From IMG/VR virus record IMGVR_UViG_3300030503_000315, positions 124,001 through 188,000 of that record: DNA of 64,000 bases. One strand, written 5' to 3'. Every line of letters starts with the position of its first letter. The stretch's first letter is position 1. The position numbers and the translations under genes are program-made. This DNA is from a virus. This document shows positions 3,378 through 50,603 of the stretch, piece by piece. Under the pieces are notes generated by a model that had not been told where the DNA came from, did no database searches, and saw only the letters and a program-made list of their open reading frames with translations.

Positions 3378-3500
3378 TCAGATGAGGTCGTTGAGAATAC
3401 GAATCAGGTCGTGCGGTGCCCAGAAGCCGTACAGCGCAATAGCACCAAAAGCTCCAACCGCGCACGCCATCAAAACTTCCGTGAATGTTGTTTCTTTCAT
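3378..3500 (-). CDS. small membrane protein, 40 aa
   Basis: The ATG at 3500 follows GGAGCAACATC. The product, MKETTFTEVLMACAVGAFGA and onward, is one hydrophobic helix (residues 9-28) with a short polar tail ending RILNDLI. It ends 8 nt before the next start. Probably a single-pass inner-membrane peptide; role unknown. Confidence 0.6.
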   Translation of the reverse strand: MKETTFTEVLMACAVGAFGAIALYGFWAPHDLIRILNDLI

Positions 3501-7736: not shown

Positions 7737-8049
7737 CTTTTAAGTCCTTGGGTTTCATTGTTACTTTATAAGGCTTGCCAAGATCGTATCGAGAATTTTC
7801 TGTCTCCACCCTTACTGCATCCCCTTCTTCATTGTACCCAATAGCTACAACAAGACTTGTTCGGATCCACTCGCCCGAACGAATAGCCCAGTCTGGATAG
7901 TCATAGATATCGCCCATCACTACAAAGTCAAGACTGTTGTCCATGGGCTTATGGAATGTCCAATTCTCTATCCGGCCCTTATGGGGTTTCAGGTCTTGGG
8001 CTGAGTTTTGCGAGGAGTCGCCTTCCGTCTTCTGCGTTTCGTTGCTCAT
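7726..8049 (-). CDS. hypothetical protein, 107 aa
   Basis: The start MSNETQKTEGDSS at 8049 follows AAGGAGAAACAG. The protein begins with a polar, probably disordered stretch and then becomes beta-rich (SLDFVVMGDIYDYPDW, IRTSLVVAIGYNEEG), like a small beta-barrel. It overlaps the upstream gene by 71 nt in another frame. Function is unknown. Confidence 0.65.
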   Translation of the reverse strand: MSNETQKTEGDSSQNSAQDLKPHKGRIENWTFHKPMDNSLDFVVMGDIYDYPDWAIRSGEWIRTSLVVAIGYNEEGDAVRVETENSRYDLGKPYKVTMKPKDLKDGS

Positions 8050-8542
8050 CTGTTTCTCCTTCTTTATCAGATTTGTTAGCCATGCGTTCCCTAAATCCTT
8101 CCATCTCTTTGTCAACGTGTTCCCGTGCCATGTCGAATGCCTCGTAGTGTGCAAACACCAATTCATCCTTTTCTTCTGGTTGTTCCTCAGGATCTTTCTT
8201 GCCAAGAAATAACTTGATAACGTCCTCACGACGAACCCAATCACCTTGCTGCATACGGAAAGACTCACCATCGAAGTGATCGTAGTTCTCAATGGTTGCC
8301 AATATCCTCTCCAGGTGGTTCCTGTTGAACCTATTATTCCTCAGGATGTCCTCGGTCATCCATTCCGGATATTGCGTGCGGATCATCAAGATACGTTCCA
8401 TTCTATCCGTTATGCAAGGATAGTCCAAACCACCTATGGGACCCCACTGAATTTGCATCTCAGGATGATCGGACCAAACTTCATCCTCGTCAAACATCTC
8501 AGGGATGTCAGCGACGAATCTCTTAAGTTCTTTAACGTTCAT
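7979..8542 (-). CDS. hypothetical protein, 187 aa
   Basis: The start at 8542 (MNVKELKRFVADIPEM) lies inside the end of the previous gene after GAGGAAAGCTCGG. The N-terminal 60 residues resemble the small beta/alpha phage proteins that begin with a helix and an ELxxxFxxDIP-type segment. The C-terminal third is charged and probably disordered. The overlap with 7726-8049 is real in both frames, since both starts have good ribosome sites. Confidence 0.7.
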   Translation of the reverse strand: MNVKELKRFVADIPEMFDEDEVWSDHPEMQIQWGPIGGLDYPCITDRMERILMIRTQYPEWMTEDILRNNRFNRNHLERILATIENYDHFDGESFRMQQGDWVRREDVIKLFLGKKDPEEQPEEKDELVFAHYEAFDMAREHVDKEMEGFRERMANKSDKEGETDEQRNAEDGRRLLAKLSPRPETP

Positions 8543-8729
8543 CCGAGCTTTCCTCCAGCTTTGATATGCTTAGAAAGTATTCAAACAGGATTGCCATTTC
8601 TGAACAATCTCTTCCCGAGAAGAAAGGTCTGCCTTCGTCAAGATAGACATAAGCTCGACGAAGGTCCACAATGTATTCCTGTACAATTTCTTTGAGTTCC
8701 CAAGGCTCCATCTCTGACGGATGCATCAT
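8532..8729 (-). CDS. small protein, paralogue of a domain in 14577-15815
   Basis: This 65-aa protein carries the motif VDLRRAYVYLDEGRPFFSGR followed by DCSEMAILFEYFLS. The same segment (NDLHRAHEYLDAGKPFFTGK, then DCSELAEFLESLLG) occurs at about residues 283-320 of the 412-aa product of 14577-15815, so the two share a domain by duplication. The role of the domain is unknown. The start at 8729 (MMHPSEM) lies just downstream of the previous gene. Confidence 0.65.
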   Translation of the reverse strand: MMHPSEMEPWELKEIVQEYIVDLRRAYVYLDEGRPFFSGRDCSEMAILFEYFLSISKLEESSDER

Positions 8730-8731
8730 TT

Positions 8732-8935
8732 CTATAGCTCCAAAAATTTCTTGTAGAAGGACTCGAACTCTTTCTCACACGCTATGATGGCCATCTGTTC
8801 CTCGTCCGGTCTCCCCTTCAGTTGCTTACGTCTGCGGCGTATATCTTCGAAGTCTTGAAGCATGAACTTGTAGAATACAGGATCTATGAATTCCCTGTTC
8901 TGTATCTCATGAGGAGGCTTCTTTTTGTCATCCAC
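8732..8935 (-). CDS. hypothetical helical protein, 67 aa
   Basis: It begins MDDKKKPPHEIQNREF and is highly charged and helical (DFEDIRRRRKQLKGRPDEEQ). It sits tightly between two other small genes. Function is unknown. Confidence 0.6.
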   Translation of the reverse strand: MDDKKKPPHEIQNREFIDPVFYKFMLQDFEDIRRRRKQLKGRPDEEQMAIIACEKEFESFYKKFLEL

Positions 8936-8936
8936 C

Positions 8937-9140
8937 CTATACCTCCACCACTATCAAGAGAGCAAGATGCAGGAAAGTTAAGTATATAGTGATAACAATC
9001 AAGGCAGATATAAGGAGAACTACGAAGGCAAAACTTCTCTTCTCATTCCACTCCATTTTTGCGTAGAAACCTATGAGGCTCAGCTCTAGGATAGTAGCTA
9101 GGGTTAACGTAGCAATTCCACCCCACAACGTATAATCCAT
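8937..9140 (-). CDS. two-pass membrane protein, 67 aa
   Basis: Two hydrophobic segments (residues 5-26 and 38-65) flank a short basic loop (KMEWNEKRS). It begins MDYTLWGGIATLTL and is adjacent to a second small membrane protein. Role unknown. Confidence 0.65.
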   Translation of the reverse strand: MDYTLWGGIATLTLATILELSLIGFYAKMEWNEKRSFAFVVLLISALIVITIYLTFLHLALLIVVEV

Positions 9141-9142
9141 AA

Positions 9143-9334
9143 CTACCTCAGTACGATAGAAACATGATGTATGCCATACGCTATAGATTCGAGAAGTACG
9201 GCAACGGCAGCTATGCAGATGAAGAATACAAACGCGATGAACGACCTAGCTGCCTGCTCACCATCTTTTGATGCTCCAGCTATGACCAAGAAGATCATAG
9301 CTATCGCAAAAATTGCTAGAAGAAATTTTGTCAC
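9143..9334 (-). CDS. two-pass membrane protein, 63 aa
   Basis: It begins MTKFLLAIFAIAMIFLVIAG, with a second hydrophobic segment at residues 32-55 and a polar connector (SKDGEQAARS). Its start overlaps the end of 9331-9645 by 4 nt. Role unknown. Confidence 0.65.
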   Translation of the reverse strand: MTKFLLAIFAIAMIFLVIAGASKDGEQAARSFIAFVFFICIAAVAVLLESIAYGIHHVSIVLR

Positions 9335-9645
9335 ATTTGCTCCTTTAGCTTTCTGAGGTATTCTTTCTGATCGGCATCCCGTCGCTCAAACTCGAGGTCA
9401 AGAATCGGCTCACAGGCCTTGAGGAGTTTGTTAACCTGATTTTCTGCATCCTCAGGACCATCGAGATCATTCATGCAATCATAGATTCCGTTACTGATAA
9501 GAGCGAGGCCTAGAGACGCATGGAACTTGAGTCGGGTGTATGCTTCTTCCCGTTCATCTATAGAATGGCCACAACCATCATCCGATTCTTCGATTGCCTG
9601 TTCGTGCTTGTAGCAAATCGGACAAGGAAAATATAGATCAGTCAT
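9331..9645 (-). CDS. zinc-knuckle protein, 104 aa
   Basis: The N-terminus has CPICYKHE followed by DDGCGHS, a CxxC...CxH pattern consistent with one zinc site (residues 8-26). The rest is helical with many acidic and basic residues. It is cotranslated with the neighbouring membrane proteins. No family is recognised. Confidence 0.65.
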   Translation of the reverse strand: MTDLYFPCPICYKHEQAIEESDDGCGHSIDEREEAYTRLKFHASLGLALISNGIYDCMNDLDGPEDAENQVNKLLKACEPILDLEFERRDADQKEYLRKLKEQM

Positions 9646-11823: not shown

Positions 11824-12174
11824 TTATTCCTTATCCACCAAAGCAACTAGATCTATGTCGGGTTTATTTACTTCATGCCAAACTGCTTTGAGGATCTCAC
11901 TGGAGACGGCGTCCGGATGGTTAGGGTGATGGTCTACACCGCTCAGGATATACGTGATATCGTTGTTTTCATGTGCTTCGAACCAAAGCTGAACCAGAGG
12001 ATTATCTTTTTCCCAAAGACCATAGTGATTGCGGATGTGCATACCAACCGAATGATGGAACTGTCCCATCTTTTCAGCAGTATCAACTTCTTCGCTTCGG
12101 AGGAATTTGATATCATCCTCTTTGAGGTTTGCTACGAGTTCCTTAATGATCTCTTCTTTACTTAGGTACGACAT
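11824..12174 (-). CDS. DUF6794-like protein, 116 aa
   Basis: The start MSYLSKEEIIKE at 12174 follows AAGGAGCTAGCA. The centre reads FHHSVGMHIRNHYGLW, followed by HHPNHPDAVSSEIL. This HxxGxxIRNxxGLW...HPDxxSxxIL pattern is one I associate with the DUF6794 family of phage and bacterial proteins of unknown function. The family call is from memory of the motif. It is cotranscribed with the metallophosphoesterase. Confidence 0.7.
   Translation of the reverse strand: MSYLSKEEIIKELVANLKEDDIKFLRSEEVDTAEKMGQFHHSVGMHIRNHYGLWEKDNPLVQLWFEAHENNDITYILSGVDHHPNHPDAVSSEILKAVWHEVNKPDIDLVALVDKE
11865..11872 (-). promoter_or_regulatory. AGTAAATA box upstream of metallophosphoesterase
   Basis: The minus strand reads CATGAAGTAAATAAACC within the 3' part of 11824-12174, 45 nt upstream of the start at 11820. 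It matches the recurrent promoter-like box in sequence and spacing. Confidence 0.5.
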
Positions 12175-12391
12175 TGCTAGCTCCTTGTTGGTTATCATAC
12201 TTGAAATGCGTGTCCCGCCAATCTTCACAAACAGATTCTACGTGATGCGCGCCATCGATACCTATGTAAGTTAGGTCATGACCTTTGTAGCAATACTGTC
12301 CATCATCGTTGCATCCAGAAATTACAGCAGCTATAAGCAAGAGAGTTATCACAAACAAAGTAGGGGCCCACGCGGGATAAGTGTTCTTCAT
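12158..12391 (-). CDS. probable small lipoprotein or secreted protein, 77 aa
   Basis: The N-terminus has a short polar region, a hydrophobic segment (residues 9-25) and a lipobox-like AAVISGC ending at Cys27, which suggests lipid attachment. The mature part contains two further cysteines. It is located just upstream of 11824-12174 and overlaps it. No family is recognised. Confidence 0.6.
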   Translation of the reverse strand: MKNTYPAWAPTLFVITLLLIAAVISGCNDDGQYCYKGHDLTYIGIDGAHHVESVCEDWRDTHFKYDNQQGASNVVPK

Positions 12392-15859: not shown

Positions 15860-16073
15860 GTACTGTCAACATCCACTGTAAGTACTTCCTGTACCCCAGG
15901 ATATAACGTAACAATATACTATATGTGACAGTACCTAAATGTCGACAAGTACCCAAGAGTACTGTCAACATCCACTGTAAGTACCACCACCTACTTACAG
16001 TAACCACTGACAGTACATCCTCAAACGTAGGAAATGGTAAATATGAGGTACTTACAACAAATACTGACAGTAC
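15860..16073. repeat. iteron-like repeat cluster, possible origin or operator
   Basis: Two exact 26-bp direct repeats (15860-15885 and 15959-15984, 99 bp apart) begin GTACTGTCAACATC and end ACTGTAAGTAC. The core also appears inverted as TGACAGTAC at 15926-15934, 16008-16016 and 16065-16073, and TACTTACAGT at 15992-16001 inverts the repeat's other end. The cluster lies between divergent genes and just before a Rep-like gene. AT-rich sequence (ATATAACGTAACAATATACT) sits in the middle at about 15901-15920. This is the arrangement of an iteron origin or a repressor operator array; which one is not decided by the sequence. Confidence 0.75.
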
Positions 16074-18180: not shown

Positions 18181-18558
18181 ATGACGATACTTTGCAGGAT
18201 ACGGAAGGACAAACAAAACAACTGGTGGGACCTTGATTCGGTTCTCATAAGTGTGGATGGCATCCTGGGCATGCCCTTCGCCCGCGGATTCAAAGATCAG
18301 TTTCATGCAGTGTCGTGGTTAAGTCATCATGTAACGAGATGCTTAGGCATCGATTGCTCACACCTGTTTAATGGATACTCCGTACCTTACGATGATCTGG
18401 ACGTTGAGGTATCATACACTTTTGGTGTAGCTTATCCAACGGTGAGTTTCCATGCGTTCAATATTAGCCTGTCAACCTTTGAAGTGATCTGTGACGAGTC
18501 ACAGACTAAGGAAGACCTGGATCTTCTACAACTCATGAAAGACATTTGTCAGGGATAA
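18181..18558 (+). CDS. DLLxL-tail family protein 1, 125 aa
   Basis: The start MTILCRIRKDKQN at 18181 follows AGAGGAGCAACGA. Its C-terminus DLLQLMKDICQG is shared with the following genes. The N-terminal region (VLISVDGILGMP, then AVSWLSHHV) aligns with the third member (LVSRDGILGMP, AYEWLISEI), so the two are paralogues. It is a small alpha/beta soluble protein. Function is unknown; the shared tail suggests a common docking site. Confidence 0.7.
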   Translation: MTILCRIRKDKQNNWWDLDSVLISVDGILGMPFARGFKDQFHAVSWLSHHVTRCLGIDCSHLFNGYSVPYDDLDVEVSYTFGVAYPTVSFHAFNISLSTFEVICDESQTKEDLDLLQLMKDICQG

Positions 18559-18561
18559 CCA

Positions 18562-18948
18562 ATGAATCAATGTAGTGGATGCGTCTACCAGGCCAGAAAG
18601 CAGAATGACCTGTGGCATCTTTTCTATGAGATGTTATACACCGAAAAGTCATCTGGTCTTCGTCATCTTATGAGAGGTCAGTTCACAAGTAGGGATGAAG
18701 CTGAGCGTCATCTTGTTGAAACCTTTGGTCGTTGTACAGACCAACTCGAGGCCGACAGGGTGTCTTGTCTTGTCCTGCTTATTCCACGAGAACAGGAATG
18801 GGATCTTCAAGTGAAATGGGATCCAGTTCCTACCACCAGCATGTTGTGTTATCCAAATATTGCAAACCTAAAGTACAAGATCACCAAACATGCTGCACAA
18901 CCTGATCTTCTGCAACTCATGCACGATATCCTTGGAGATAACCAATGA
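18562..18948 (+). CDS. DLLxL-tail family protein 2, 128 aa
   Basis: It starts MNQCSGCVYQARKQ and ends PDLLQLMHDILGDNQ. The middle has EWDLQVKWDPVP, also found as ILNWDPVP in member 5 and INFDPIDP in member 6, so members 2, 5 and 6 form one subgroup. It overlaps the next gene by 4 nt. Function is unknown. Confidence 0.7.
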   Translation: MNQCSGCVYQARKQNDLWHLFYEMLYTEKSSGLRHLMRGQFTSRDEAERHLVETFGRCTDQLEADRVSCLVLLIPREQEWDLQVKWDPVPTTSMLCYPNIANLKYKITKHAAQPDLLQLMHDILGDNQ

Positions 18949-19307
18949 CGATCCTTGTTCATTTTCGAAAATCTACGAACCCGCAAAAGTGGAGCGTGAG
19001 TACAACTCTGGTGTCTCGTGATGGCATCCTCGGTATGCCCGAACGCGGTGCCTTCGCGACGCAAGCCGGAGCCTACGAGTGGCTTATAAGTGAGATAGCC
19101 GTGGCGACCAATTATGACGTAAAACAGGTTTTTGAAGAGGCACGTGCCGAGGTGCGTATCGATATCGAAGAGGAGTTCGACATCGTAATTTCTGTACCAA
19201 ACGGGCACAGTACCCTTCCTATAGTGGAGTTCAAAAGACTCAACATGGTGGGAGATGTAACCACCGTGGACCTCCTGCAGTTGATGAACGACATCTGCTC
19301 TAACTGA
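18945..19307 (+). CDS. DLLxL-tail family protein 3, 120 aa
   Basis: It begins MTILVHFRKSTNPQKW and ends VDLLQLMNDICSN. It is a clear paralogue of member 1 through the MTIL start, the DGILGMP motif and the tail. The start overlaps the previous stop (ATGA). Function is unknown. Confidence 0.7.
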   Translation: MTILVHFRKSTNPQKWSVSTTLVSRDGILGMPERGAFATQAGAYEWLISEIAVATNYDVKQVFEEARAEVRIDIEEEFDIVISVPNGHSTLPIVEFKRLNMVGDVTTVDLLQLMNDICSN

Positions 19308-19315
19308 GGTATAGA

Positions 19316-19675
19316 ATGGCAATCAGAAAATGTGAGTGGAGTATAATGCGAGTAGGGAACATCGCTAGCTCTGGGACTTACTCGGGTTATGAAATCTATG
19401 ATGACGCTACACAGAAACTCTTAGATACAGCTCCTCGTGGATTTCTTTCGACGACTTTGCGCCGCTTGATGTTATGTATTGGATATCCTAGAGATCAGAT
19501 AGACGCCCTTGTGGATCCCTTGGTTGTTCAGTTGATGAAAGATGAAACAACACCTCTGTACCTTCACTTCGAAGCAGACCTTGAGATGTGCTGCCGACTT
19601 CTGGATGTACCTTACAAGGGTCCGGTGGTTCCCACTCCAGACCTCCTGCAAATCATGAATGATATCTGTTCCTAA
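19316..19675 (+). CDS. DLLxL-tail family protein 4, 119 aa
   Basis: It starts MAIRKCEWSIMRVG after TGAGGTATAGA and ends TPDLLQIMNDICS. The body differs strongly from the neighbours while the tail is kept, which argues that the tail itself is selected. Function is unknown. Confidence 0.7.
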   Translation: MAIRKCEWSIMRVGNIASSGTYSGYEIYDDATQKLLDTAPRGFLSTTLRRLMLCIGYPRDQIDALVDPLVVQLMKDETTPLYLHFEADLEMCCRLLDVPYKGPVVPTPDLLQIMNDICS

Positions 19676-19685
19676 GGACTAGCAT

Positions 19686-20084
19686 ATGGATCTCATAGGA
19701 TGTATTTTTAAAGTTAGGATGTTACGAAACGCAGCCCATTGGGAAATTCTTAATCAGTACATCTATGAGGATGGATCTCTAACTCGAGAGACTTACTTTA
19801 GTTCGAGTTTAGGCTCAAGGTTACAGGCGGATTCATACCTCGCTGGACATGTCCGAAGCTGTTTTGACGACATTCGCTACTCCATGGCGCTCTCTACTAT
19901 AGATAGAGTAGGGAAAGATCTTGAGTACGACTTTATCCTGAACTGGGATCCTGTACCTCCCATCTTTCCAGGTGGTAATGCCGCATTGAAGAATCTGAGC
20001 ATGAGAGTTGAAGTTCCTGGTGATGATGGACAGCAAACAACACCTGATCTTTTATCCATCATGAATGATGTTTGTAGAGGATGA
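19686..20084 (+). CDS. DLLxL-tail family protein 5, 132 aa
   Basis: It starts MDLIGCIFKVRM and ends PDLLSIMNDVCRG. It shares NWDPVP and NAALKNL with the subgroup formed by members 2 and 6 (NIANLKY, TSLTNVR). It overlaps the next gene by 4 nt. Confidence 0.7.
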   Translation: MDLIGCIFKVRMLRNAAHWEILNQYIYEDGSLTRETYFSSSLGSRLQADSYLAGHVRSCFDDIRYSMALSTIDRVGKDLEYDFILNWDPVPPIFPGGNAALKNLSMRVEVPGDDGQQTTPDLLSIMNDVCRG

Positions 20085-20476
20085 AGATGAAATACGTTAC
20101 ATGCACGTTCAAGGTATTGAAGAACCCAGATGTATCTAGTGCGTCAAAGTGGGTAGTCAAGTACATGTACAAGCAGGAATTCGGTCTTGCTACAGTTCCG
20201 CAAACATTTGGTACTTATCTCACAAGAGGTGAGGCTATGGATAGTCTTGTCTATCATATAGGATCTGTCCTTGGTGATTTGTCGAACCACTACTATGATC
20301 TACCTCCGGATGTTGAATTCAGGATTGACATCAATTTCGACCCTATCGATCCGGACATTCATCCTCTGAATCATACTTCCCTCACAAATGTTCGACTAGA
20401 TCTAACGTGGAAAGATGACAAGAGCCTGGATGGTTCGGCCTTGCTTGATCTCATGTACGACATCTTGGGAAACTGA
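20081..20476 (+). CDS. DLLxL-tail family protein 6, 131 aa
   Basis: It starts MKMKYVTCTFKVLKN, like the KCEW/CIFKV starts of its relatives, and ends ALLDLMYDILGN. INFDPIDP aligns with members 2 and 5. Function is unknown. Confidence 0.7.
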   Translation: MKMKYVTCTFKVLKNPDVSSASKWVVKYMYKQEFGLATVPQTFGTYLTRGEAMDSLVYHIGSVLGDLSNHYYDLPPDVEFRIDINFDPIDPDIHPLNHTSLTNVRLDLTWKDDKSLDGSALLDLMYDILGN

Positions 20477-20477
20477 C

Positions 20478-20903
20478 ATGCTAGTGACCAATATGCAGTA
20501 TCTTGTTCAACCTAAGAAATCTGGTATCTGCGATTTTCATGTCGATGCCAAGTGGGTGGATACGAATGGAGTATCCCATCTGTATGATTCTTTCTATCCG
20601 ATTGACCGGGAAAACCTTTTGGTAACCCTTGCATGGTTGTCGCACCACAAGATCGGCAGCAACTGTGGGGCTTCCGATTACGCATGGCGTCAACTCTTTG
20701 ATAACTATGTGCAGCCCAAGGACAATTTCTATACACACGAGTGTTTGATAACCTTGGGTTGGGGTCTCAAAGCTTACGACGAATCGTCTGTCACTCCTAC
20801 CCATGTGCGTATCGATGAAGCTACGTGGACCAAAGTTGGTATCCATGGGGGAAGCTTAAGAACAAATCTCCTCGACCTGGCCAAAGATTTGTGTCAGTTC
20901 TAG
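20478..20903 (+). CDS. DLLxL-tail family protein 7, 141 aa
   Basis: The start is taken as ATG 20478 (MLVTNMQYLVQPKK), one base after the preceding stop; ATG 20493 is possible. It ends TNLLDLAKDLCQF. A VTLAWLSHHKIG segment resembles VSWLSHHVTR of member 1. Function is unknown. Confidence 0.65.
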   Translation: MLVTNMQYLVQPKKSGICDFHVDAKWVDTNGVSHLYDSFYPIDRENLLVTLAWLSHHKIGSNCGASDYAWRQLFDNYVQPKDNFYTHECLITLGWGLKAYDESSVTPTHVRIDEATWTKVGIHGGSLRTNLLDLAKDLCQF

Positions 20904-20906
20904 GAA

Positions 20907-20914
20907 AGTAAATA
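20907..20914 (+). promoter_or_regulatory. AGTAAATA promoter-like box
   Basis: It reads AGGAAAGTAAATATTGATG immediately after member 7 and 29 nt before the start at 20943. It splits the tandem family into two transcription units. Confidence 0.65.
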
Positions 20915-20942
20915 TTGATGTCGATCTTAGGAGGTGCCCGCG

Positions 20943-21314
20943 GTGAAAGATAACTGTTTCAACATTTACTACAACTCAAGGCTTGATACTTGGGAACTGT
21001 ACGAGTCCAGCGGCCATGCAATCTTGGGTTGGAGCAGGTCTCAAGATCAGGTCGTGTGGTTTGCAAAGAATGCTGCTCAACGAAATAACGGTGGCGAACC
21101 CGTAGAGTTCGATATCGAACGCTATGGCGCCGTGGTTTATATGTCTCCCAAGCCCACCTCGGCTATTTGGCAAGAAATTGTAGACCGGGAAGATGCCGAG
21201 TGGAAGAGGAAGGTTGACGAGATGATAGCGGGTTATGTTCCTGGATCTCTACTGGATCCTACAAAGGTCTGGTCTACTGAGCCAGACCTTTTGCAGTTGA
21301 TGCATGATCTCTAA
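20943..21314 (+). CDS. DLLxL-tail family protein 8, 123 aa
   Basis: The GTG at 20943 (MKDNCFNIYYNSRLD) is preferred because AGGAGG lies 7 nt upstream; GTG 20934 overlaps that site. The protein ends PDLLQLMHDL. It is a small alpha/beta protein with a helical KRKVDEMIAG segment. Function is unknown. Confidence 0.65.
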   Translation: MKDNCFNIYYNSRLDTWELYESSGHAILGWSRSQDQVVWFAKNAAQRNNGGEPVEFDIERYGAVVYMSPKPTSAIWQEIVDREDAEWKRKVDEMIAGYVPGSLLDPTKVWSTEPDLLQLMHDL

Positions 21315-21322
21315 GGAGAACC

Positions 21323-21790
21323 ATGATGGTTTTGGAGAAGCTTGAATTTCGTTTCAATAGAAGTTGGATGGCGCCACACTCAATGTTGTTCATTGATAGT
21401 GGAGGAGGTCAAACTGTTTGGGCTACATTCGATGAAGATCAGATGGAAGCTACCCTCGACACCTTCATTCGCAACCGGTTTGCTGGACTAGACTTTGTCA
21501 AAGAAGCGTTTGATGACTGGTTAACCGATGCTGTCTCGGGTGGTCCTGAAATCTCAGATGAAGAGGCATGGAATTTTGATGTCTATTTTGGACCCCAGCA
21601 GATAGATGGTATGGATCCAAATTTCGATTCCAAGAAATTTGCCATAGCAGAGTGGGATCTTCCTGATGATGAAATAGAACAATTGAGTAGTGTTCGTGGT
21701 TGTACTTTCTCCAAAGACACCATCATCCAGTTTGTAGAAGTCACTTACGGGAGTAAAGTAGTTGATCTCCTTTCCTTAATCCCCTTTTAA
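21323..21790 (+). CDS. DLLxL-tail family protein 9, 155 aa
   Basis: It starts MMVLEKLEFRFNRSW after AAGGAGAACC. The tail has changed to VVDLLSLIPF, the same as member 10. The body is acidic, with helices around residues 35-65. The SLIPF ending is closer to a Q/DLxLxF sliding-clamp-type peptide, an inference only. Confidence 0.7.
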   Translation: MMVLEKLEFRFNRSWMAPHSMLFIDSGGGQTVWATFDEDQMEATLDTFIRNRFAGLDFVKEAFDDWLTDAVSGGPEISDEEAWNFDVYFGPQQIDGMDPNFDSKKFAIAEWDLPDDEIEQLSSVRGCTFSKDTIIQFVEVTYGSKVVDLLSLIPF

Positions 21791-21802
21791 GCTGAGACAT
21801 TT

Positions 21803-22438
21803 ATGGTCGCGTTATTCCTTACCGGGATGTCGTTTGTAGAATCTCTTCTCTTCATACCATTTGTGTTTTATGGTTTGGTGTTGGTTCTCGTTGTCCTATC
21901 TGCTTGGGCAATAGATGAATCACCAGGTAACAAACGTGAAGGTTGGTTTATTGCAACTTTGCTATCTGCGTTGCTTGTTCTACTTATTGGCTGGAAGTTT
22001 GGTGTTCATTTCTCGGGCCTGGTGAACCACCCGGTGTTCTCTATCGAAGCTTTTGTGGTATATCTTGTTGTAGGTGTGCTGTGGAGTTTTGGTAAGTGGT
22101 ATTTCTTTCTCTCTAAGGTCAGAGAGAAATACTTAGAACTCAAGGATGAATATTCATCTAGCTTACAAAGCCTTTATCATGCTGTGGATTCAGAGTTGAA
22201 TTTCTACAAGAGAGTTGACTATAATTCTTTGGATAAAAATCCAAATCAAATCTCTGAAGCGATCAAACCCCAGGTATCGGCGCATAAAGCGAGTATCACC
22301 CGTTGGATCATTTGTTGGCCTTTGAGTTTCGTGTGGACTATGCTTAATGATCCACTGCGCAAACTTGCCGATACAATCTTCTCGCATATCAAAAGTGTAT
22401 TCCAGAAGATGTCTGATAAGATGTTCCATGGAGTATGA
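21803..22438 (+). CDS. multi-pass membrane protein, 211 aa
   Basis: Three hydrophobic segments (about residues 10-35, 47-65 and 78-100) are followed by a long charged cytoplasmic-type domain with a coiled-coil stretch (REKYLELKDEYSSSLQSLYH) and a further amphipathic region. It sits between two DLLxL-tail genes but lacks the tail. Function is unknown. Confidence 0.7.
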   Translation: MVALFLTGMSFVESLLFIPFVFYGLVLVLVVLSAWAIDESPGNKREGWFIATLLSALLVLLIGWKFGVHFSGLVNHPVFSIEAFVVYLVVGVLWSFGKWYFFLSKVREKYLELKDEYSSSLQSLYHAVDSELNFYKRVDYNSLDKNPNQISEAIKPQVSAHKASITRWIICWPLSFVWTMLNDPLRKLADTIFSHIKSVFQKMSDKMFHGV

Positions 22439-22439
22439 G

Positions 22440-22796
22440 ATGGCAATTTCTGACAGATACAAGTTTGTGATGTTTAGGACAGATATTGGTTTTCAGGTGG
22501 ATAAATTTCTAGGATTCAATGATCTTAGCTACGAGAGTGAACCTGTATCCAAAACCTATAGTTCATTTGTCCTGGCATGCGATTCAATCCTGCTTATTAT
22601 TCGTCCGTTCTTGCCGGACACCATGAAGCCAGTTCCAACTTGTATGAAGGGGCTGGATTCATCCAGGAATCATGAGTTCATTGTAATTTATGATACTTTT
22701 AATATAGTTGCTGTCGGTGCCCGATGTTTCAAGGAACATCCATATAACCCAAACCTAATCGAGGAAGTTGATCTGCTTTCTCTCATTCCATTCTAA
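22440..22796 (+). CDS. DLLxL-tail family protein 10, 118 aa
   Basis: The start MAISDRYKFVMFRTD at 22440 follows GGAGTATGAG and overlaps the end of the membrane protein. It ends EVDLLSLIPF, identical in the last eight residues to member 9. Function is unknown. Confidence 0.7.
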   Translation: MAISDRYKFVMFRTDIGFQVDKFLGFNDLSYESEPVSKTYSSFVLACDSILLIIRPFLPDTMKPVPTCMKGLDSSRNHEFIVIYDTFNIVAVGARCFKEHPYNPNLIEEVDLLSLIPF

Positions 22797-24915: not shown

Positions 24916-25300
24916 GCCGAAGGTCAAGGTCACTTCTGTCAATCAGGAAAAGGTTAACAAAGCTTGTGGTGAGATGGTAGATTTCCTTTCGAAGTCTATC
25001 GAATCTTACCTGTCATCCCTACTTGGTTTTTCGGAAGATGAGTTTACAAGGTCGTTAGCTCTCAACATGCTAGCACCTTCGTCTCGGGAACTTGTGGTCG
25101 GTAGTCCTGTTGTCGGGAAAACCTTGGTTGATAATAATCTTAAAGCCATAAACTATTTGACCTACGGTAACCAACTGTGGGTTCAACGTGTGAATCCTGC
25201 GTTCCCGGGCGACATTAACAGCTTTGAACACCAACTGGTTGGTGACGTCATTGAAGACGAAGATTGTGCCAAGGACGAATCTTTCGCCCTGAAACCATAG
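24890..25300 (+). CDS. KVTS-start protein, 136 aa
   Basis: The GTG start at 24890 follows CGGGAGGTTCGCG and overlaps the previous gene by 26 nt. The N-terminus STRPKVKVTSVNQE carries the shared motif. The middle is helical (MVDFLSKSIESYLSSLLGFS). The tail is acidic. Function is unknown. Confidence 0.65.
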   Translation: MTNIDKSTRPKVKVTSVNQEKVNKACGEMVDFLSKSIESYLSSLLGFSEDEFTRSLALNMLAPSSRELVVGSPVVGKTLVDNNLKAINYLTYGNQLWVQRVNPAFPGDINSFEHQLVGDVIEDEDCAKDESFALKP

Positions 25301-26850: not shown

Positions 26851-28791
26851 ATGTCGAGTATTCTTAATTCTTTCGCATCGGACTTCGACCAATCGCTGAA
26901 CGAAAAGTACAGCGTCCTGGAATATCTGGAAAACTGCCGTACGGACAAATCGTTCTACGCAACGGCAGCGGAACGGATGTTGAAAGCAATCGGTGAACCG
27001 CGCATGCTGGATACGTCGAAAGATGCGCGTCTCGGTCGTATCTTTGACAACCGGACAATCAAGGTGTACCCGGCGTTCGAAGAAGAGTTCTTCGGTATCG
27101 AGGACACAATTGAACGTCTAGTTGGTTTCTTCCGCGCAGCAGCACAGGGTCTGGAAGAACGCAAACAGGTTCTGTACATGCTTGGACCGGTAGGCTCTGC
27201 AAAGTCGAGTCTGGCAGAGAAGTTGAAGTACCTGATGGAACTCAACCCCATCTACGTGCTGAGCTACAAAAATCAGTTGTCCCCGGTGTTCGAATCTCCG
27301 CTCGGCCTCTTCCCGGTTCACAAGTATGGTGAACGTCTGGAAAAGGAATACGGAATTCATCGTCGTTACCTGACGAACCTGATCCCTTCGCCATGGGCTC
27401 TGAAACGTCTGAAGGAAACTAATGGTGATCTGTCTGATTTCAGCGTGGTCAAGATGTACCCGTCCAAGCTGAACCAGCAGGCAATCATGAAGGTCGAACC
27501 GGGGGATGAAAACAATCAGGACATCTCATCCTTGGTTGGTAAGATCAACCTTCGTCGTATCGATGCGCACGACCAGAACGACAGCGATGCATATCTGTAC
27601 TCGGGTGGCCTCTGCCGCTCCAATCAGGGCATGCTCGAATTCGTGGAAATGTTCAAGGCACCTATCAAGGTTCTTCACCCGTTGCTGACGGCGACGCAGG
27701 AAGGTAACTACGTTGGTACCGAAGCGCTTCCTCCTATTCCGTTCAGTGGTGTAGTAGTTGCGCACTCGAACGAAAGCGAATGGGAAACGTTCAAGAACAA
27801 CAAGAACAACGAGGCTTTCCTGGATCGTGTGTCCCTTGTGTCTGTACCGTATTGCAAACGCGTTGATGAAGAAATCAACATCTACAAGAAGATGCTTGGT
27901 GCTTCGTCATTGGCACAGTCGCCGATTGCACCGCAGACCTTGAAGTACCTGGCGCAATGGTCGATCTCTACACGGCTGAAGGAGCCGGAGAATTCCCTGC
28001 TGTTTTCTAAAGTCCGAGTCTACAACGGTGAGAACCTCAAGGACATCGATCCGCGAGCAAAGTCGACGCGTGAGTATCGCGATCACGCAGGTGTAGCTGA
28101 GGGAATGACAGGGATGTCTACCCGCTTCGCATTCAAGATCCTGTCGAAGACATTCAACAACGATGCGGAAGAAGTTGCAGCTGATCCGCTTCAGCTGATG
28201 GTTGTCCTGCAGAATGAGATCAAGCGCGAGCAGATGTCGAAGGAACAGGAAGAGAAGTACGAGTCGTTCGTCAAGGAAATGTCGCAACGTTACCTTGAGG
28301 ATCTGACGAAGGACATCCAGAAGGCATTCATCGAGAATAGCGAAGACTATTGCCAGAACCTGTTCGAACGTTATATCCAGTTGGCAGATGCCTGGTGCCA
28401 GGATTCGACGTTCAAGGACGATAACACCGGTTCGACAATGAACAAGGCAGAGATGGATCAGGAGCTGTCGAAGATCGAAAAGCCGGCGGGTATCGCGAAC
28501 CCGAAGGATTTCCGCCCTGAAGTCGTGCAGTTCGTACTGCGCGTTCAAGCTCGTAATGGTGGCAAGATGCCGCGCTGGAATTCGTATGAAAAGATGAAGC
28601 AGGTCATCGAAAGCAAGATGAGCGCTTCTCTGGACGAACTCCTCCCGGTGATCTCGTTCGAAACGAAGAAGGAAGTGAAGCTGCAGAAGGATCACGACTC
28701 GTTCGTGGAGCGTATGGAGAAGATCGGCTACACCTCACGTCAAGTTCGTCGTGTAGTCGAATGGTTCAGCCGCGCACGCAAGGCTAACTAA
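26851..28791 (+). CDS. prkA: PrkA-family serine protein kinase, 646 aa
   Basis: The protein has the length of bacterial PrkA/YeaG (about 640 aa). An AAA-type P-loop GPVGSAKSSLAEKL lies at about residue 112, preceded by VYPAFEEEFFGIEDTIERLV, and followed by long stretches typical of the family (FSGVVVAHSNESEWETFKNN, and RDHAGVAEGMTGMSTRFAFK). The C-terminal kinase-homology half is present. PrkA is a cytoplasmic Ser kinase with an AAA domain linked to stress and stationary-phase physiology in bacteria. Here its usual partners YeaH/YhbH and SpoVR follow, after a terminator and three small genes. The start follows AGAGGGAACTGAA. Confidence 0.93.
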   Translation: MSSILNSFASDFDQSLNEKYSVLEYLENCRTDKSFYATAAERMLKAIGEPRMLDTSKDARLGRIFDNRTIKVYPAFEEEFFGIEDTIERLVGFFRAAAQGLEERKQVLYMLGPVGSAKSSLAEKLKYLMELNPIYVLSYKNQLSPVFESPLGLFPVHKYGERLEKEYGIHRRYLTNLIPSPWALKRLKETNGDLSDFSVVKMYPSKLNQQAIMKVEPGDENNQDISSLVGKINLRRIDAHDQNDSDAYLYSGGLCRSNQGMLEFVEMFKAPIKVLHPLLTATQEGNYVGTEALPPIPFSGVVVAHSNESEWETFKNNKNNEAFLDRVSLVSVPYCKRVDEEINIYKKMLGASSLAQSPIAPQTLKYLAQWSISTRLKEPENSLLFSKVRVYNGENLKDIDPRAKSTREYRDHAGVAEGMTGMSTRFAFKILSKTFNNDAEEVAADPLQLMVVLQNEIKREQMSKEQEEKYESFVKEMSQRYLEDLTKDIQKAFIENSEDYCQNLFERYIQLADAWCQDSTFKDDNTGSTMNKAEMDQELSKIEKPAGIANPKDFRPEVVQFVLRVQARNGGKMPRWNSYEKMKQVIESKMSASLDELLPVISFETKKEVKLQKDHDSFVERMEKIGYTSRQVRRVVEWFSRARKAN

Positions 28792-28865
28792 GATTGTAGT
28801 TGCACCGGGTAGTTCCCCTGTAGTACCGTGTGAAGTGTAGTACGTAGTCTTGTAAGTTGTGAAGG

Positions 28866-28896
28866 GGGCAGCCTGTTTAAGTTAGGCTGCCCTTTT
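28866..28896 (+). terminator. rho-independent terminator after prkA
   Basis: GGGCAGCCT (28866-28874) pairs with AGGCTGCCC (28884-28892) across a 9-nt loop, followed by TTTT. It lies 75 nt after the prkA stop. Confidence 0.85.
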
Positions 28897-28928
28897 CCTT
28901 TTTGTTTTCGAATTTCATAGGTACCACC

Positions 28929-29057
28929 ATGGAAACAATTGATAAGATTTTCAATTGGATGAATCAAGACGGGGCAAGATTCGGAGTAGGAATGTGGATC
29001 ATAGGTGTAGCGTTTGGTCTCTTCCTGTCCTTGATTATCAAGTGGGTCAATCCATGA
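28929..29057 (+). CDS. small membrane protein, 42 aa
   Basis: ATG 28929 begins METIDKIFNWMNQDG; the protein has one transmembrane helix (residues 20-38, VGMWIIGVAFGLFLSLII) and a KWVNP tail. Its stop overlaps the next start (ATGA). It lies within the prkA-yeaH interval. Confidence 0.6.
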   Translation: METIDKIFNWMNQDGARFGVGMWIIGVAFGLFLSLIIKWVNP

Positions 29058-29347
29058 GTGTTCTTCGCAAAGAAATCTCTCGTCTGAACCATGTTATTGA
29101 GCGCACCGAGCAAGAGATGATTAATCTAGAGGAAGATTTCTGGCAGAATGGTGGCATCTGTTGTCCGGGTTGTGGTGTACCTGGATTCTCAGAGATGGAA
29201 GAGAAGCAAGAGCGTAGGAAAAAGCAACTTAGATATCTTATCAAGAAGTACGAGAAGGACAGTGGGAGGAAATATGAAGATCATCCGGAAGCTCGTAGCC
29301 TGGCCAGCCGCATATTCAATTTTCTTCTTGGGCTTGATCCTGACTAG
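29054..29347 (+). CDS. helical protein with CPGC knuckle, 97 aa
   Basis: The start MSVLRKEISRLNHV overlaps the previous stop. A coiled-coil helix (residues 3-30) is followed by ICCPGCGVPGF and a second basic helix (EEKQERRKKQLRYLIKK), an alpha-hairpin with a zinc or redox turn. Function is unknown. Confidence 0.65.
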   Translation: MSVLRKEISRLNHVIERTEQEMINLEEDFWQNGGICCPGCGVPGFSEMEEKQERRKKQLRYLIKKYEKDSGRKYEDHPEARSLASRIFNFLLGLDPD

Positions 29348-29489
29348 GTTGGGTTGGTACAAAGGTCAGTGGCATTGGTTTATGGACTTAGCGATGCATA
29401 TCAGGATTGGGGTGGTTGCCCGGGTCCATGGCTTCGCACAGAAGATGTTCATAATGCACGAAAGAACAGGTGATGTAGTAAATATTTGA
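29274..29489 (+). CDS. small membrane protein, 71 aa
   Basis: The start MKIIRKLVAWPAAYSI at 29274 has GGAGG 4 nt upstream, within the last part of the previous gene (other frame). One transmembrane segment (residues 8-26) is followed by a basic and aromatic domain (WYKGQWHWFMDLAMH). The ribosome site supports the overlap. Confidence 0.55.
   Translation: MKIIRKLVAWPAAYSIFFLGLILTRLGWYKGQWHWFMDLAMHIRIGVVARVHGFAQKMFIMHERTGDVVNI
29477..29484 (+). promoter_or_regulatory. AGTAAATA promoter-like box upstream of yeaH
   Basis: It reads GATGTAGTAAATATTTGATG, 62 nt upstream of the YeaH start, within the last codons of the preceding small gene. Confidence 0.6.
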
Positions 29490-29545
29490 TGGGCGGTATA
29501 AAACCGGGTGACGGGTAGATCGTCACCTCAACTGGAGGGTTGAAA

Positions 29546-30817
29546 ATGTTTAGTCGGACTATTGTTGATGCACGACCACAATCGCAGTCTAAGACCTCGG
29601 CAGACCGGCAGAGGTTTGTTCGTCGGGCTAAATCTCAGATTCGTGAAGCAGTTAAGAAGGCAATCTCTACTGGCGATATCAAGTCATTGGAGAAGGGTCG
29701 CATTCGTGTTCCAGTCAAGGACATGAATGAACCCACGTTTGAGAACGACAGGGAATCCGGGTCCCGTGATCGCGTCTACACCGGGAACAAAGAATGGATT
29801 CCAGGTGACACGATTGCACGTCCTGAGGAAGGTGGAGGTAATGGTACTCAAGGATCGGATGATCCAAGCATTGGCAATGATGACTTCGCCTTCATTCTGA
29901 CTCCAGAGGAATTCTACGATATCTTGTTCGAGGATTTGGGTCTTCCTGATCTAATGAAGAAGACGATGAAGGATATCACGAAGGTCACTCGCAAACGCGC
30001 GGGCTTCGTTATCACGGGTAATCCTTCGCAGCTGGATATTCGCCAGACTTACAAGTTCGCATTCGCACGTCACAAGGCATTGGGTCGTCCTTCGAATGTA
30101 GACATCGAAGAAGCTGAAGAGGATCTCAAGGAAGCACAGGAGTGTGGAACACAATTCGATGCAGAACTAGTTGAAGATGCATTGAAGGAAATGAAAATCG
30201 CACAGAAACGTATCCCGCTCATTGATACAATTGATCTGCGATATCGCAACTATCCACCGCGTCCTGAGCCGATCACCAAGGCAGTGATGATTTGCTGTAT
30301 GGATGTTTCTGGGTCGATGGATGAGGATCGAAAGGATCTGGCAAAACGATTCTATCTCTTGCTATATGTCTGGTTGATGAAGCAGTACAATCAAAGGGTT
30401 GATATCGTGTTCATCCGTCATCACACGCGTGCGGAAGAAGTAGACGAACAAAAATTCTTCTACGATCAAGAATCAGGTGGTACAGTCGTAAGTCCAATCT
30501 TTGAACTCGCAGCTAAGATCATCAAAGATCGTTACAATCCTTCTGATTGGAACATCTACATGTGTCATGCATCTGACGGTGACAACTGGACAGATGACAA
30601 CAAGAAGGTTGTCGAGGCATTGGATGGTATGGCGTCTACCTTGCAATACTTTGCATATCTTCAGGTTACGGAAGAAGACGAGGACGAAGGAGATACGTTG
30701 TGGAACGCCTATCAAAAGGTGAGTGAACGACACAACCATATTCGTATGGTGTCCGCGGATGAACCTTCGGAAATCTGGCCGGTGTTTAAAGAGTTGTTCA
30801 CCAAGGATATGGCGTAA
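29546..30817 (+). CDS. yeaH: YeaH/YhbH-family protein (DUF444, VWA domain), 423 aa
   Basis: Length and layout match E. coli YeaH (about 427 aa). A basic N-terminus (TIVDARPQSQSKTSADRQRF) with a GNKEWIPGDTI segment leads to a C-terminal von Willebrand A domain with the MIDAS motif CMDVSGSMDEDRKDLAKRF (about residue 251), then FIRHHTRAEEVDEQKFFY and GGTVVSPIFELAAKII. In bacteria YeaH/YhbH is encoded with PrkA and SpoVR; its molecular role is not well defined. The ATG at 29546 follows GGAGGGTTGAAA. Confidence 0.92.
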   Translation: MFSRTIVDARPQSQSKTSADRQRFVRRAKSQIREAVKKAISTGDIKSLEKGRIRVPVKDMNEPTFENDRESGSRDRVYTGNKEWIPGDTIARPEEGGGNGTQGSDDPSIGNDDFAFILTPEEFYDILFEDLGLPDLMKKTMKDITKVTRKRAGFVITGNPSQLDIRQTYKFAFARHKALGRPSNVDIEEAEEDLKEAQECGTQFDAELVEDALKEMKIAQKRIPLIDTIDLRYRNYPPRPEPITKAVMICCMDVSGSMDEDRKDLAKRFYLLLYVWLMKQYNQRVDIVFIRHHTRAEEVDEQKFFYDQESGGTVVSPIFELAAKIIKDRYNPSDWNIYMCHASDGDNWTDDNKKVVEALDGMASTLQYFAYLQVTEEDEDEGDTLWNAYQKVSERHNHIRMVSADEPSEIWPVFKELFTKDMA

Positions 30818-30829
30818 GGAGAATTGGAA

Positions 30830-32347
30830 ATGAAATCCGCTATCAAGACAATCAAGCCCGATTACCTGTTCACCACTTCTGAGTGGACATTCGAGATGCT
30901 TGAGAACACCCTTCGTCTTTGTGAAGACATTGGCAAGGAAGAGCTCGGCCTCAAGCTCATGCGTAATCAGGTTGAGATCATCACCAGCGATCAAATGCTT
31001 GAAGCCTACACTTCGGTAGGAATGCCGATTCACTATCATCACTGGTCGAACGGCAAGTCGTATCTTCAGCAAAAGCAAGCGTACAAGGGCGGTAACATGG
31101 GTCTGGCTTATGAGATCGTTATCAATAGCGATCCATGCATCGCCTACTGCATGGAAGAGAACAGCTCTGCTATGCAAACTCTCGTATTGGCCCATGCTTC
31201 GGTTGGACACAACTCAGTTTTCAACATGAATTATCTGTTCAAGCACTGGACGGATGCAACGGCTATTGTCGATTACCTGATCTTTGCGCGCAACTACATT
31301 CGTCAGTGTGAAGAGCGTTATGGTCTGGATGAAGTCGAAGAGATTCTCGACTCAGCTCATGCACTTCGCTACATGTCGTTCGATCGCCGCAAACGTCAGT
31401 CGACTTTGACGGAAGACCAGGAACAAAAGCGTCGCATGGATTTGTTGGAAGCGCTGGAGCGTGAGCGTTCACAGTATGATGATCTCATCCCAGTGGATGA
31501 ACGGGAGGATGAAGCTAAGGACAAGGATCGTGGTGATCTCAAAGAGCCGGAAGAGAACCTCCTGTATTTCCTTGAGAAGAACTCTCCTAATCTGAAGGCG
31601 TGGCAGCGTGAAATCCTTCGGATTGTACGGACAATCCAGCAGTACTTCTACCCGCAGATGCAGACGCAGGTGGTGAATGAAGGATGGGCGACATTCACTC
31701 ACTACTACATTCTCAATCGTCTGTATGAGATGGGAAAGATTACGGAAGGTGCGTTGCTTGAATGCATGACTTCGCATTCGCAGGTCCTTTTTCAACAGCC
31801 AATGAGTCCCAACCTGAATCCGTATGCACTTGGATTTTCTATCTACAAGGATATCAAACGGATGTGCGAGGAACCCACAGATGAAGATCGTGAGTGGTTC
31901 CCTAATCTGGTTGGTAAAGATTGGAAGGAAGAATGCCTGTTCGCCATGATGAACTTCAAGGACGAGTCGTTCATTCTTCAGTACCTTAGCCCAAAGGTTA
32001 TGCGTGACTTCCGCATGTTTGCCTTGACGGATGATGCAGACGAGGATCACTATCTGGTGAATAAGATTCACAACGATCCTGGGTATAAAGAGATTCGTTC
32101 GATGTTGAGTCAGCAGTATCGTATGGAAAACCGCATGCCGAACATGATGGTTGTCCGTGCAGACATGAAAGGCAATCGTCTTCTAACCGTACAGAACAAG
32201 ACGCAGAATAAGATTCTTCTTAAAGACGATCCCGCGAAAGATTCTGTGCAACATCTGGCGTATCTGTGGGGATACGACGTTAGAGTGGAAACCGTGGATG
32301 AGAGTGGTAAGGTCCTGCAATACTACACAGCTGAGGTGGAGAACTAA
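30830..32347 (+). CDS. spoVR: SpoVR-family protein, 505 aa
   Basis: SpoVR/YcgB family, about 510 aa in E. coli. Recognisable segments: GMPIHYHHWSNGKSY (about residue 65), AYEIVINSDPCIAYCMEENS (about 95), HASVGHNSVFNMN, then LQPWQREILRIVR-like and VVNEGWATFTHYYILNRLYE at about 285. It is the third member of the PrkA-YeaH-SpoVR group, immediately after yeaH with AAGGAGAATTGGAA. In Bacillus SpoVR affects spore cortex formation; a common biochemical role for the trio is not settled. Confidence 0.92.
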   Translation: MKSAIKTIKPDYLFTTSEWTFEMLENTLRLCEDIGKEELGLKLMRNQVEIITSDQMLEAYTSVGMPIHYHHWSNGKSYLQQKQAYKGGNMGLAYEIVINSDPCIAYCMEENSSAMQTLVLAHASVGHNSVFNMNYLFKHWTDATAIVDYLIFARNYIRQCEERYGLDEVEEILDSAHALRYMSFDRRKRQSTLTEDQEQKRRMDLLEALERERSQYDDLIPVDEREDEAKDKDRGDLKEPEENLLYFLEKNSPNLKAWQREILRIVRTIQQYFYPQMQTQVVNEGWATFTHYYILNRLYEMGKITEGALLECMTSHSQVLFQQPMSPNLNPYALGFSIYKDIKRMCEEPTDEDREWFPNLVGKDWKEECLFAMMNFKDESFILQYLSPKVMRDFRMFALTDDADEDHYLVNKIHNDPGYKEIRSMLSQQYRMENRMPNMMVVRADMKGNRLLTVQNKTQNKILLKDDPAKDSVQHLAYLWGYDVRVETVDESGKVLQYYTAEVEN

Positions 32348-38596: not shown

Positions 38597-38965
38597 ATGC
38601 CCATTATCGCACTGTATGACAACGTAATTATTCGTCGGATAGAATCCCCGAACACGACTGCGTCTGGTCTTATCATTTCTTCTACGTCATCCCCGGATCA
38701 ATGGACAGGTGAAGTAGTTGCAACTGGTGAAGGAAAGATCCTTCAGGACGGATGTTTGTTCCCTCTAACCGTCAAAGAAGGTGATAAGGTTATCATCAGC
38801 ACTAAGTCAGAGTACCGTGCTCCTATATCGGTCGACGGTGAAGAACTTTACGCGTTCAAGGAACATGAACTAGTTGGTATCATCTATCCATATGGAACGG
38901 AATTGAATAATAGTTTCGGGATCGATGAAGAACTGGAAGACGAAGGGGAAGAGGAGGAAGAATGA
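38597..38965 (+). CDS. GroES-like co-chaperonin, 122 aa
   Basis: The Cpn10 fold is visible: IIALYDNVIIRRIESPNTTA at the N-terminus (usually LHDRVLVRR..), the mobile loop GLIISSTSSPD (residues 23-33), GEVVATGEGK, and VKEGDKVIISTKSEY leading to EELYAFKEHELVGII. It is longer than bacterial GroES (97 aa) because of an acidic C-terminal tail. Phage GroES-like proteins pair with host GroEL to fold capsid proteins (T4 gp31 is the model). No GroEL gene is visible here, so host GroEL is the presumed partner. Confidence 0.9.
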   Translation: MPIIALYDNVIIRRIESPNTTASGLIISSTSSPDQWTGEVVATGEGKILQDGCLFPLTVKEGDKVIISTKSEYRAPISVDGEELYAFKEHELVGIIYPYGTELNNSFGIDEELEDEGEEEEE

Positions 38966-39180
38966 CTACTACACAGGTAGTTTGTGATCTGCTAGAAATT
39001 CGTCGATCGCTGTTTATGTGGAAGATGAACCTGGCAGCTGTGGATCGTTTGCTTCGTCACGTCGACTACGATACGACTACACTAGAGCAATACGACTTCA
39101 GCAAAGTCAACTACGAAGGCCAATCTGCGGGTTATCAGCGGGTAATCAAAGTTGACTTACTTGCTTTGTTGACCAAGTAA
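38962..39180 (+). CDS. DLLxL-tail protein, 72 aa
   Basis: It starts MTTTQVVCDLLEIRRSL, overlapping the GroES stop. It ends VIKVDLLALLTK, a variant of the tail found in the 18-23 kb family but here in a smaller helical body. It shows that the tail is not confined to the tandem cluster. Confidence 0.65.
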   Translation: MTTTQVVCDLLEIRRSLFMWKMNLAAVDRLLRHVDYDTTTLEQYDFSKVNYEGQSAGYQRVIKVDLLALLTK

Positions 39181-39276: not shown

Positions 39277-39603
39277 ATGCCTTGGATACAAGAACCCTAC
39301 GCTCCTCCTGCAACACAGAAAGTCATATTCAACACCTACGATATAGATCAAGCGAACGTTTGGATGAGAATAATCCAGATGCATATCTGTGATGAGAAGT
39401 TAAGGAATAAGCCAGGAACTTTCGAGTTCGGACATATAACGTTGCACGACGTCATCCTTGTCTCATGCTGTACGGATCAGGAACCTTCTTATTTGGTTTC
39501 CAGATCTCCCAAGACAGAGATTGAACTCGCGTTCATCCACTTCCCGGAAGAAAAGAAGGTTGAGAAGACAAACTTGCTGAGGTTGATCCATGAACCACGA
39601 TAG
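39277..39603 (+). CDS. DLLxL-like tail protein, 108 aa
   Basis: It starts MPWIQEPYAPPATQKV just after the tRNA gene, and ends EKTNLLRLIHEPR, related to the tail motif ([DN]LLxLI). The body is alpha/beta with MRIIQMHICDEKLRNK. Function is unknown. Confidence 0.65.
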   Translation: MPWIQEPYAPPATQKVIFNTYDIDQANVWMRIIQMHICDEKLRNKPGTFEFGHITLHDVILVSCCTDQEPSYLVSRSPKTEIELAFIHFPEEKKVEKTNLLRLIHEPR

Positions 39604-50602: not shown

Positions 50603-50603
50603 T

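Follow-up and report, generated by a model that had tools for sequence, protein, structure and literature searches.

Why should small phage proteins with strongly diverged bodies keep one short peptide at their C-terminal ends? The question is raised by a gene cluster at positions 18181-22796 of a 64,000-nucleotide stretch of viral DNA (the window; positions 124001-188000 of the 215,315-bp virus record IMGVR_UViG_3300030503_000315), whose products end in tails of the DLLxL(M/I) type. The family A DNA polymerase of this jumbo phage is 52% identical to those of the Burkholderia phages BcepSaruman and BcepSauron, 53% to that of IMG/VR contig 642918914_000001 (G001) and 43% to that of Achromobacter phage Motura. 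On balance, we think that the tail serves as a short linear motif for docking, placed at the C-terminus, by which many small bodies would be joined to one partner, and that some of its carriers may be mimics. Docking, already proposed in a preliminary description of this DNA, is the best reading of a peptide that lies outside the predicted core of cluster member m5, ends unlike bodies, recurs at several loci, is under selection and is kept by an orthologue in a close relative; its absence from distant relatives weighs on the other side. Docking tails are already known as a kind; to our knowledge, neither their presence on so many unlike small phage proteins nor the construction of some carriers from the phage's own virion proteins has been described, and literature searches of incomplete coverage found no account of such a tail or of portal or capsid mini-proteins.

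The cluster had been described as ten tandem open reading frames (ORFs). All ten are present on the plus strand with the tails quoted for them, but a membrane-type ORF of 211 amino acids (aa) separates m9 from m10, and therefore only nine members (m1-m9) stand in tandem. The ten ORFs mostly possess ribosome-binding sites, and most of their stops and starts overlap or abut (positions here and below are those of the window unless given as record positions):

18181..18558, plus strand: m1, 125 aa, tail DLLQLMKDICQG, DGILGMP body homologous to m3, AGGAG before the ATG
18562..18948, plus strand: m2, 128 aa, tail DLLQLMHDILGDNQ, WDPVP body homologous to m5
18945..19307, plus strand: m3, 120 aa, tail DLLQLMNDICSN, DGILGMP body, overlapping the m2 stop
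19316..19675, plus strand: m4, 119 aa, tail DLLQIMNDICS, the sole link to other members
19686..20084, plus strand: m5, 132 aa, tail DLLSIMNDVCRG, modelled with AlphaFold2
20081..20476, plus strand: m6, 131 aa, tail ALLDLMYDILGN, body homologous to m5
20478..20903, plus strand: m7, 141 aa, tail NLLDLAKDLCQF
20943..21314, plus strand: m8, 123 aa, tail DLLQLMHDL, GTG start with GGAGG ahead
21323..21790, plus strand: m9, 155 aa, tail DLLSLIPF, AAGGAG before the ATG
21803..22438, plus strand: membrane-type ORF, 211 aa, without the tail
22440..22796, plus strand: m10, 118 aa, tail DLLSLIPF

A codon-usage gene caller trained on the phage's long genes rejected m1, m2, m5 and m10, whose codon use is thus atypical; promoter and terminator scans yielded chance level only.

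The cluster tails fit the pattern [DNA]LLx[LI][MIA], m6 having A where the others have D (ALLDLM). A relaxed form, [DN]L[LVF]x[LI][AMIVL], occurs 23 times in the 350 predicted proteins of the whole phage, and 16 of these occurrences lie no more than 9 residues from the C-terminus (binomial p about 1e-15); outside the cluster the placing is C-terminal in 7 of 14 (p about 3e-6), both values being optimistic since the pattern was composed after the tails were seen. Of 318 predicted proteins, 13 carry the narrower motif [DN]LLx[LIM] within their final 14 residues, whereas its internal frequency would predict 0.64. Likewise, 19 of the 2,747 screened ORFs of this phage reach a score of 10.5 with a tail profile trained on these same tails, the counts for three related phages being 0, 2 and 1. 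The search for C-terminal tails in the rest of the phage revealed further copies at several loci beyond the reported interval.

Comparison of codons in the ten cluster tails showed that 86 of 229 identical-residue pairs agree, where 88.7 would be expected at saturation. The tail codons are randomised to synonymous saturation and, therefore, it is the peptide and not the DNA that selection has kept; judged from these codons, the tail peptide has outlasted the similarity of its DNA and is under selection at the protein level. That the tail is a mere leftover of recent gene duplication is thus scarcely credible: m1-m3, m5 and m6 are indeed paralogous, but saturated synonymous sites already contradict a recent origin, the bodies have diverged far more than the tails, and the tail also ends unrelated bodies elsewhere in the genome.

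The two body subgroups noted earlier proved real once the tails were removed, with matches of 2e-11 between m1 and m3 (DGILGMP) and 2e-8 between m2 and m5 (WDPVP); the m6 body joins m5 at 1e-6. BLAST and phmmer revealed no clear similarity for the bodies of m4 and m7-m10 (m1 and m7 match at just 0.002), and in a profile comparison with all phage proteins the tail was the only part joining m4, m7 and m8 to the family. Comparison of m1-m10 with Pfam and PHROG gave nothing above the cut-off, PADLOC found no match for the four cluster members scanned, phage records held no useful match to the m5 body, and IMG/VR contained homologues of the m3 and m9 bodies only in the same phage. The AlphaFold2 model of m5 (mean predicted local distance difference test score, pLDDT, 77) comprises a mostly well predicted core at residues 1-109, in the order three strands, two helices, two strands, followed by a linker (114-121) with pLDDT below 50 and by a separate low-confidence helix formed by the tail (122-131). 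The bodies of m1-m3, m5 and m6 form one beta/alpha family. The single-sequence model of m9 is poor (pLDDT 45); its start shows the same order of elements as m5, a hint that the cluster bodies may share one predicted fold. In Foldseek searches of the PDB and of viral models, no match reached an E of 0.001 or lower. Structurally, the m5 core is closest to ChmB of phage PA1C (Z 5.7 over 78 residues, root-mean-square deviation 3.6; the next entry scores 4.2). ChmB (PhiPA3 and PA1C gp2) serves as a hub of the phage nucleus shell and binds the portal (PMC10643120). The likeness is a weak lead, as its Z lies below the level of relatedness and there is no sequence similarity; moreover, the phage described here is not known to make a nucleus.

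Within the tail, the hydrophobic residues line one face of a helix, and the D or N at its start, often preceded by P or T, may serve as the N-cap. We propose that the tail would consist of a helix-capping D/N and a short amphipathic helix, L-[LVF]-x-[LI]-[MAIVL]-x-x-[IVL], carried on a flexible linker, and that at least 16 small phage proteins would be hooked by it to one common partner, of the phage or the host, with a hydrophobic groove, while each body would choose a second partner. The amphipathic pattern, together with the origin of all carriers from one phage and the neighbouring position of many, would also suit a self-association element, by which the helices of the small proteins pack against one another with no outside partner; we consider this quite unlikely, given how short the motif is for forming a stable coil. 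Similarly, the C-terminal position and hydrophobic residues are those expected of a degradation signal making early proteins short-lived, but the distance from the motif core to the free C-terminus varies between about 2 and 9 residues across carriers, unlike carboxy-end degrons, and such a role seems highly improbable.

Seven of the C-terminal copies of the relaxed motif lie outside the cluster. The tails found beyond it, including two doubtful ones, are as follows:

38962..39180, plus strand: 72-aa protein, tail VDLLALLTK, beside a GroES-like ORF
39277..39603, plus strand: 108-aa protein, tail NLLRLIHEPR
11824..12228, minus strand: 134-aa protein ending DLVALVDKE, a doubtful tail, seen in the motif count only
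3378..3500, minus strand: 40-aa ORF ending DLIRILNDLI, a doubtful tail
record 7975-9343: four genes with tails NLLNLAQQV, DLVNLAKQV, NLFNLVKEI and QWLKLASEV
record 25055-25297: one gene, tail DLLKLAANV

The case for these outside tails rests on their number, their adjacency and one conserved orthologue. Pattern matches at record positions 5932 and 65767 were rejected as antisense or non-coding frames.

Several of these outside carriers contain pieces of virion proteins. The protein at record 25055-25297 consists mostly of a stretch of this phage's portal protein, and it matches the portal family phrog_16240 (E 1.7e-8) over profile positions 290-337 of 643, being a fragment and not a portal. 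At record 9146-9343, a 29-residue capsid segment is identical at 20 of 29 positions to the phage's own capsid protein and shares 5 of 20 codons with it, where 6.9 would be expected, so that the synonymous sites of the segment are randomised as well. In the protein at record 8914-9162, two capsid segments stand in altered order, and that at record 8358-8738 has a weaker one (E 0.011); the major head protein profile phrog_2522 matches 9146-9343 and 8914-9162 weakly (E 0.06 and 0.03). Segments of phrog_16240, phrog_11049 and phrog_2522 form carriers outside the window; unlike the full families, they span only some 25-50 residues and are joined to the tail. The function of phrog_11049 is not known. 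The portal segment recurs twice in Motura gp019 and in BcepSaruman gp209 and once in Lu11 gp133, and capsid segments recur in Motura gp073 (209113-209463) and in a G001 ORF (193528-194031, minus strand), all of them without the tail. That separate phages use the same segments again and conserve them as protein sequence is an argument for their being functional and not debris.

As a group, the small portal-segment proteins (record 25055-25297; Motura gp019; BcepSaruman gp209; Lu11 gp133, at L057:1168-1758; L104:1495-1728, minus strand) are 77-196 aa long, carry one or two copies of G[DNS]xxWxPT followed mostly by TRN or TRR, and are separate from the true portal gene. Five small proteins, at record 8735, 8914, 9146, 22607 and 22948, start with MRPKVKV, MRPRVKV, MRPKIKI, MRPKVRI and MRRQVKV, respectively, resembling the capsid protein N-terminus MVRQKVKVRAS.

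The virion fragments, the single label common to many small carriers and the head maturation protease encoded by relatives would all suit a signal for head targeting, by which small proteins enter the prohead in the manner of T4 internal head proteins. The capsid-targeting sequences of T4 likewise mark several small phage proteins with one short label; they are, however, N-terminal and cleaved, while all tails here are C-terminal and the bodies may hold capsid or portal segments. Besides, the capsid and portal mimics of related phages have no tail, and the carriers lie among replication and hypervariable small genes, outside the head gene block; hence, we regard head targeting as unlikely. Within the docking explanation, the outside carriers with portal or capsid segments would most likely act by mimicry, occupying a host or phage factor that recognises these segments.

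Bacterial immune systems are able to sense capsid proteins (CapRel, PMC9712102), so that a counter-defence role is directly testable. In a further elaboration, which we judge rather unlikely, the carriers would form a decoy array: proteins with portal or capsid segments, tethered by the tail to one hub, would catch host sensors (or other factors) away from virion assembly, m1-m10 being further baits or adaptors. This agrees with the fragments found, from which any decoy function of the mimics would have to be inferred.

Is the tail kept in other phages? A close relative, IMGVR_UViG_3300013296_000029, whose capsid protein is 97-98% identical, encodes a syntenic orthologue of the record 25055 protein in which the body is about 47% identical and the tail is kept as DLLRLAQVV (DLLRLAQVVTGV in the orthologue, compared with DLLKLAANVIGE). 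The 7975-9343 group is not at the matching place on the contig of this relative, whose contigs do not cover the region of the window cluster. Motura gp019 and BcepSaruman gp209, on the other hand, keep the portal-fragment body without the tail; hence, the preliminary description's concern that relatives might retain bodies and lose tails holds for these distant homologues but not for the close orthologue. Within the relatives searched, the tail is therefore specific to this lineage, and it is under selection. In relatives, the region around the DUF2303-like neighbour gene contains no tandem tail cluster, and a search of IMG/VR with the tail pattern found, besides the same phage, unrelated matches only. 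A tail-like end of the Motura sigma factor was set aside as a chance match, since its orthologues in this phage and in BcepSaruman do not have it.

The sliding clamp and the polymerase had been named as possible partners, a suggestion that finds no support here. A sliding-clamp docking peptide would take the small proteins to replication forks, and the phage does encode a DnaN-type clamp of its own (42% identical to that of Motura), with the clamp loader gene adjoining the second tail cluster; the hydrophobic spacing of DLLSLIPF, too, resembles the C-terminal clamp-binding peptide of the polymerase of phage RB69. Nevertheless, clamp docking is not supported, because no replication enzyme of the phage has the tail: the clamp loader lacks it and the two parts of the polymerase terminate in ...LQAALKKAA and ...KKKDATDSN. 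The tails also depart from the QL[SD]LF-type beta-clamp motif, the position of its Q being L in nearly all of them and never Q; relatives with homologous clamps are without the tail; and clamp peptides are not usually bound as N-capped amphipathic helices. We thus hold clamp docking to be very unlikely.

Other known systems resemble the tail in part. The clamp-binding peptides of T4 and RB69 are also short, hydrophobic and C-terminal, with similar spacing, and occur on several proteins of one phage; here, in contrast, the tail ends uncharacterised small proteins and no replication enzyme, and the clamp is of the bacterial DnaN type. Encapsulation peptides of bacterial microcompartments likewise are short amphipathic helices on flexible linkers that serve as docking labels, but they belong to another class of organism and differ in sequence, and no shell protein is implicated here. 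The C-terminal tip of single-stranded DNA-binding protein (SSB) differs as well: m9 and m10 share its terminal IPF but have no acidic run ahead of it.

Several observations weigh against docking to a common partner. No partner of the tail was found. Each outside tail is weak when taken alone, with 0.3-4 chance matches expected for each under a profile built from the ten cluster tails. Because the m9 model is poor, separation of the tail from the core is seen for one subgroup only. Profile comparison with all phage proteins gave the window bodies no link to structural proteins, and the idea of mimicry stands, in consequence, on carriers outside the window. Finally, the searches made did not reveal the tail in relatives with capsid proteins 53-81% identical, so that the partner must be specific to the lineage or the host. 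If the tail does bind one partner, a single peptide pull-down would place more than 12 uncharacterised phage genes in a physical context. The occurrence of portal and capsid segments within small proteins that are not structural, in several jumbo phages, points to an unrecognised layer of self-mimicry.

The window also contains features outside the tail genes. At 15860-16073, four copies of a 26-nucleotide repeat (GTACTGTCAACATCCACTGTAAGTAC type), some inverted, sit at the start of a gene weakly matching the filamentous-phage replication protein G2P; possibly, this site is an origin with its initiator. At 48278-51521, two ORFs of 774 and 305 aa make up a split family A DNA polymerase, while BcepSaruman and Motura encode the enzyme as a single ORF. 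Genes for PrkA kinase, DUF444 and SpoVR follow one another at 26851-32347 as a phage-borne bacterial stress-type operon.

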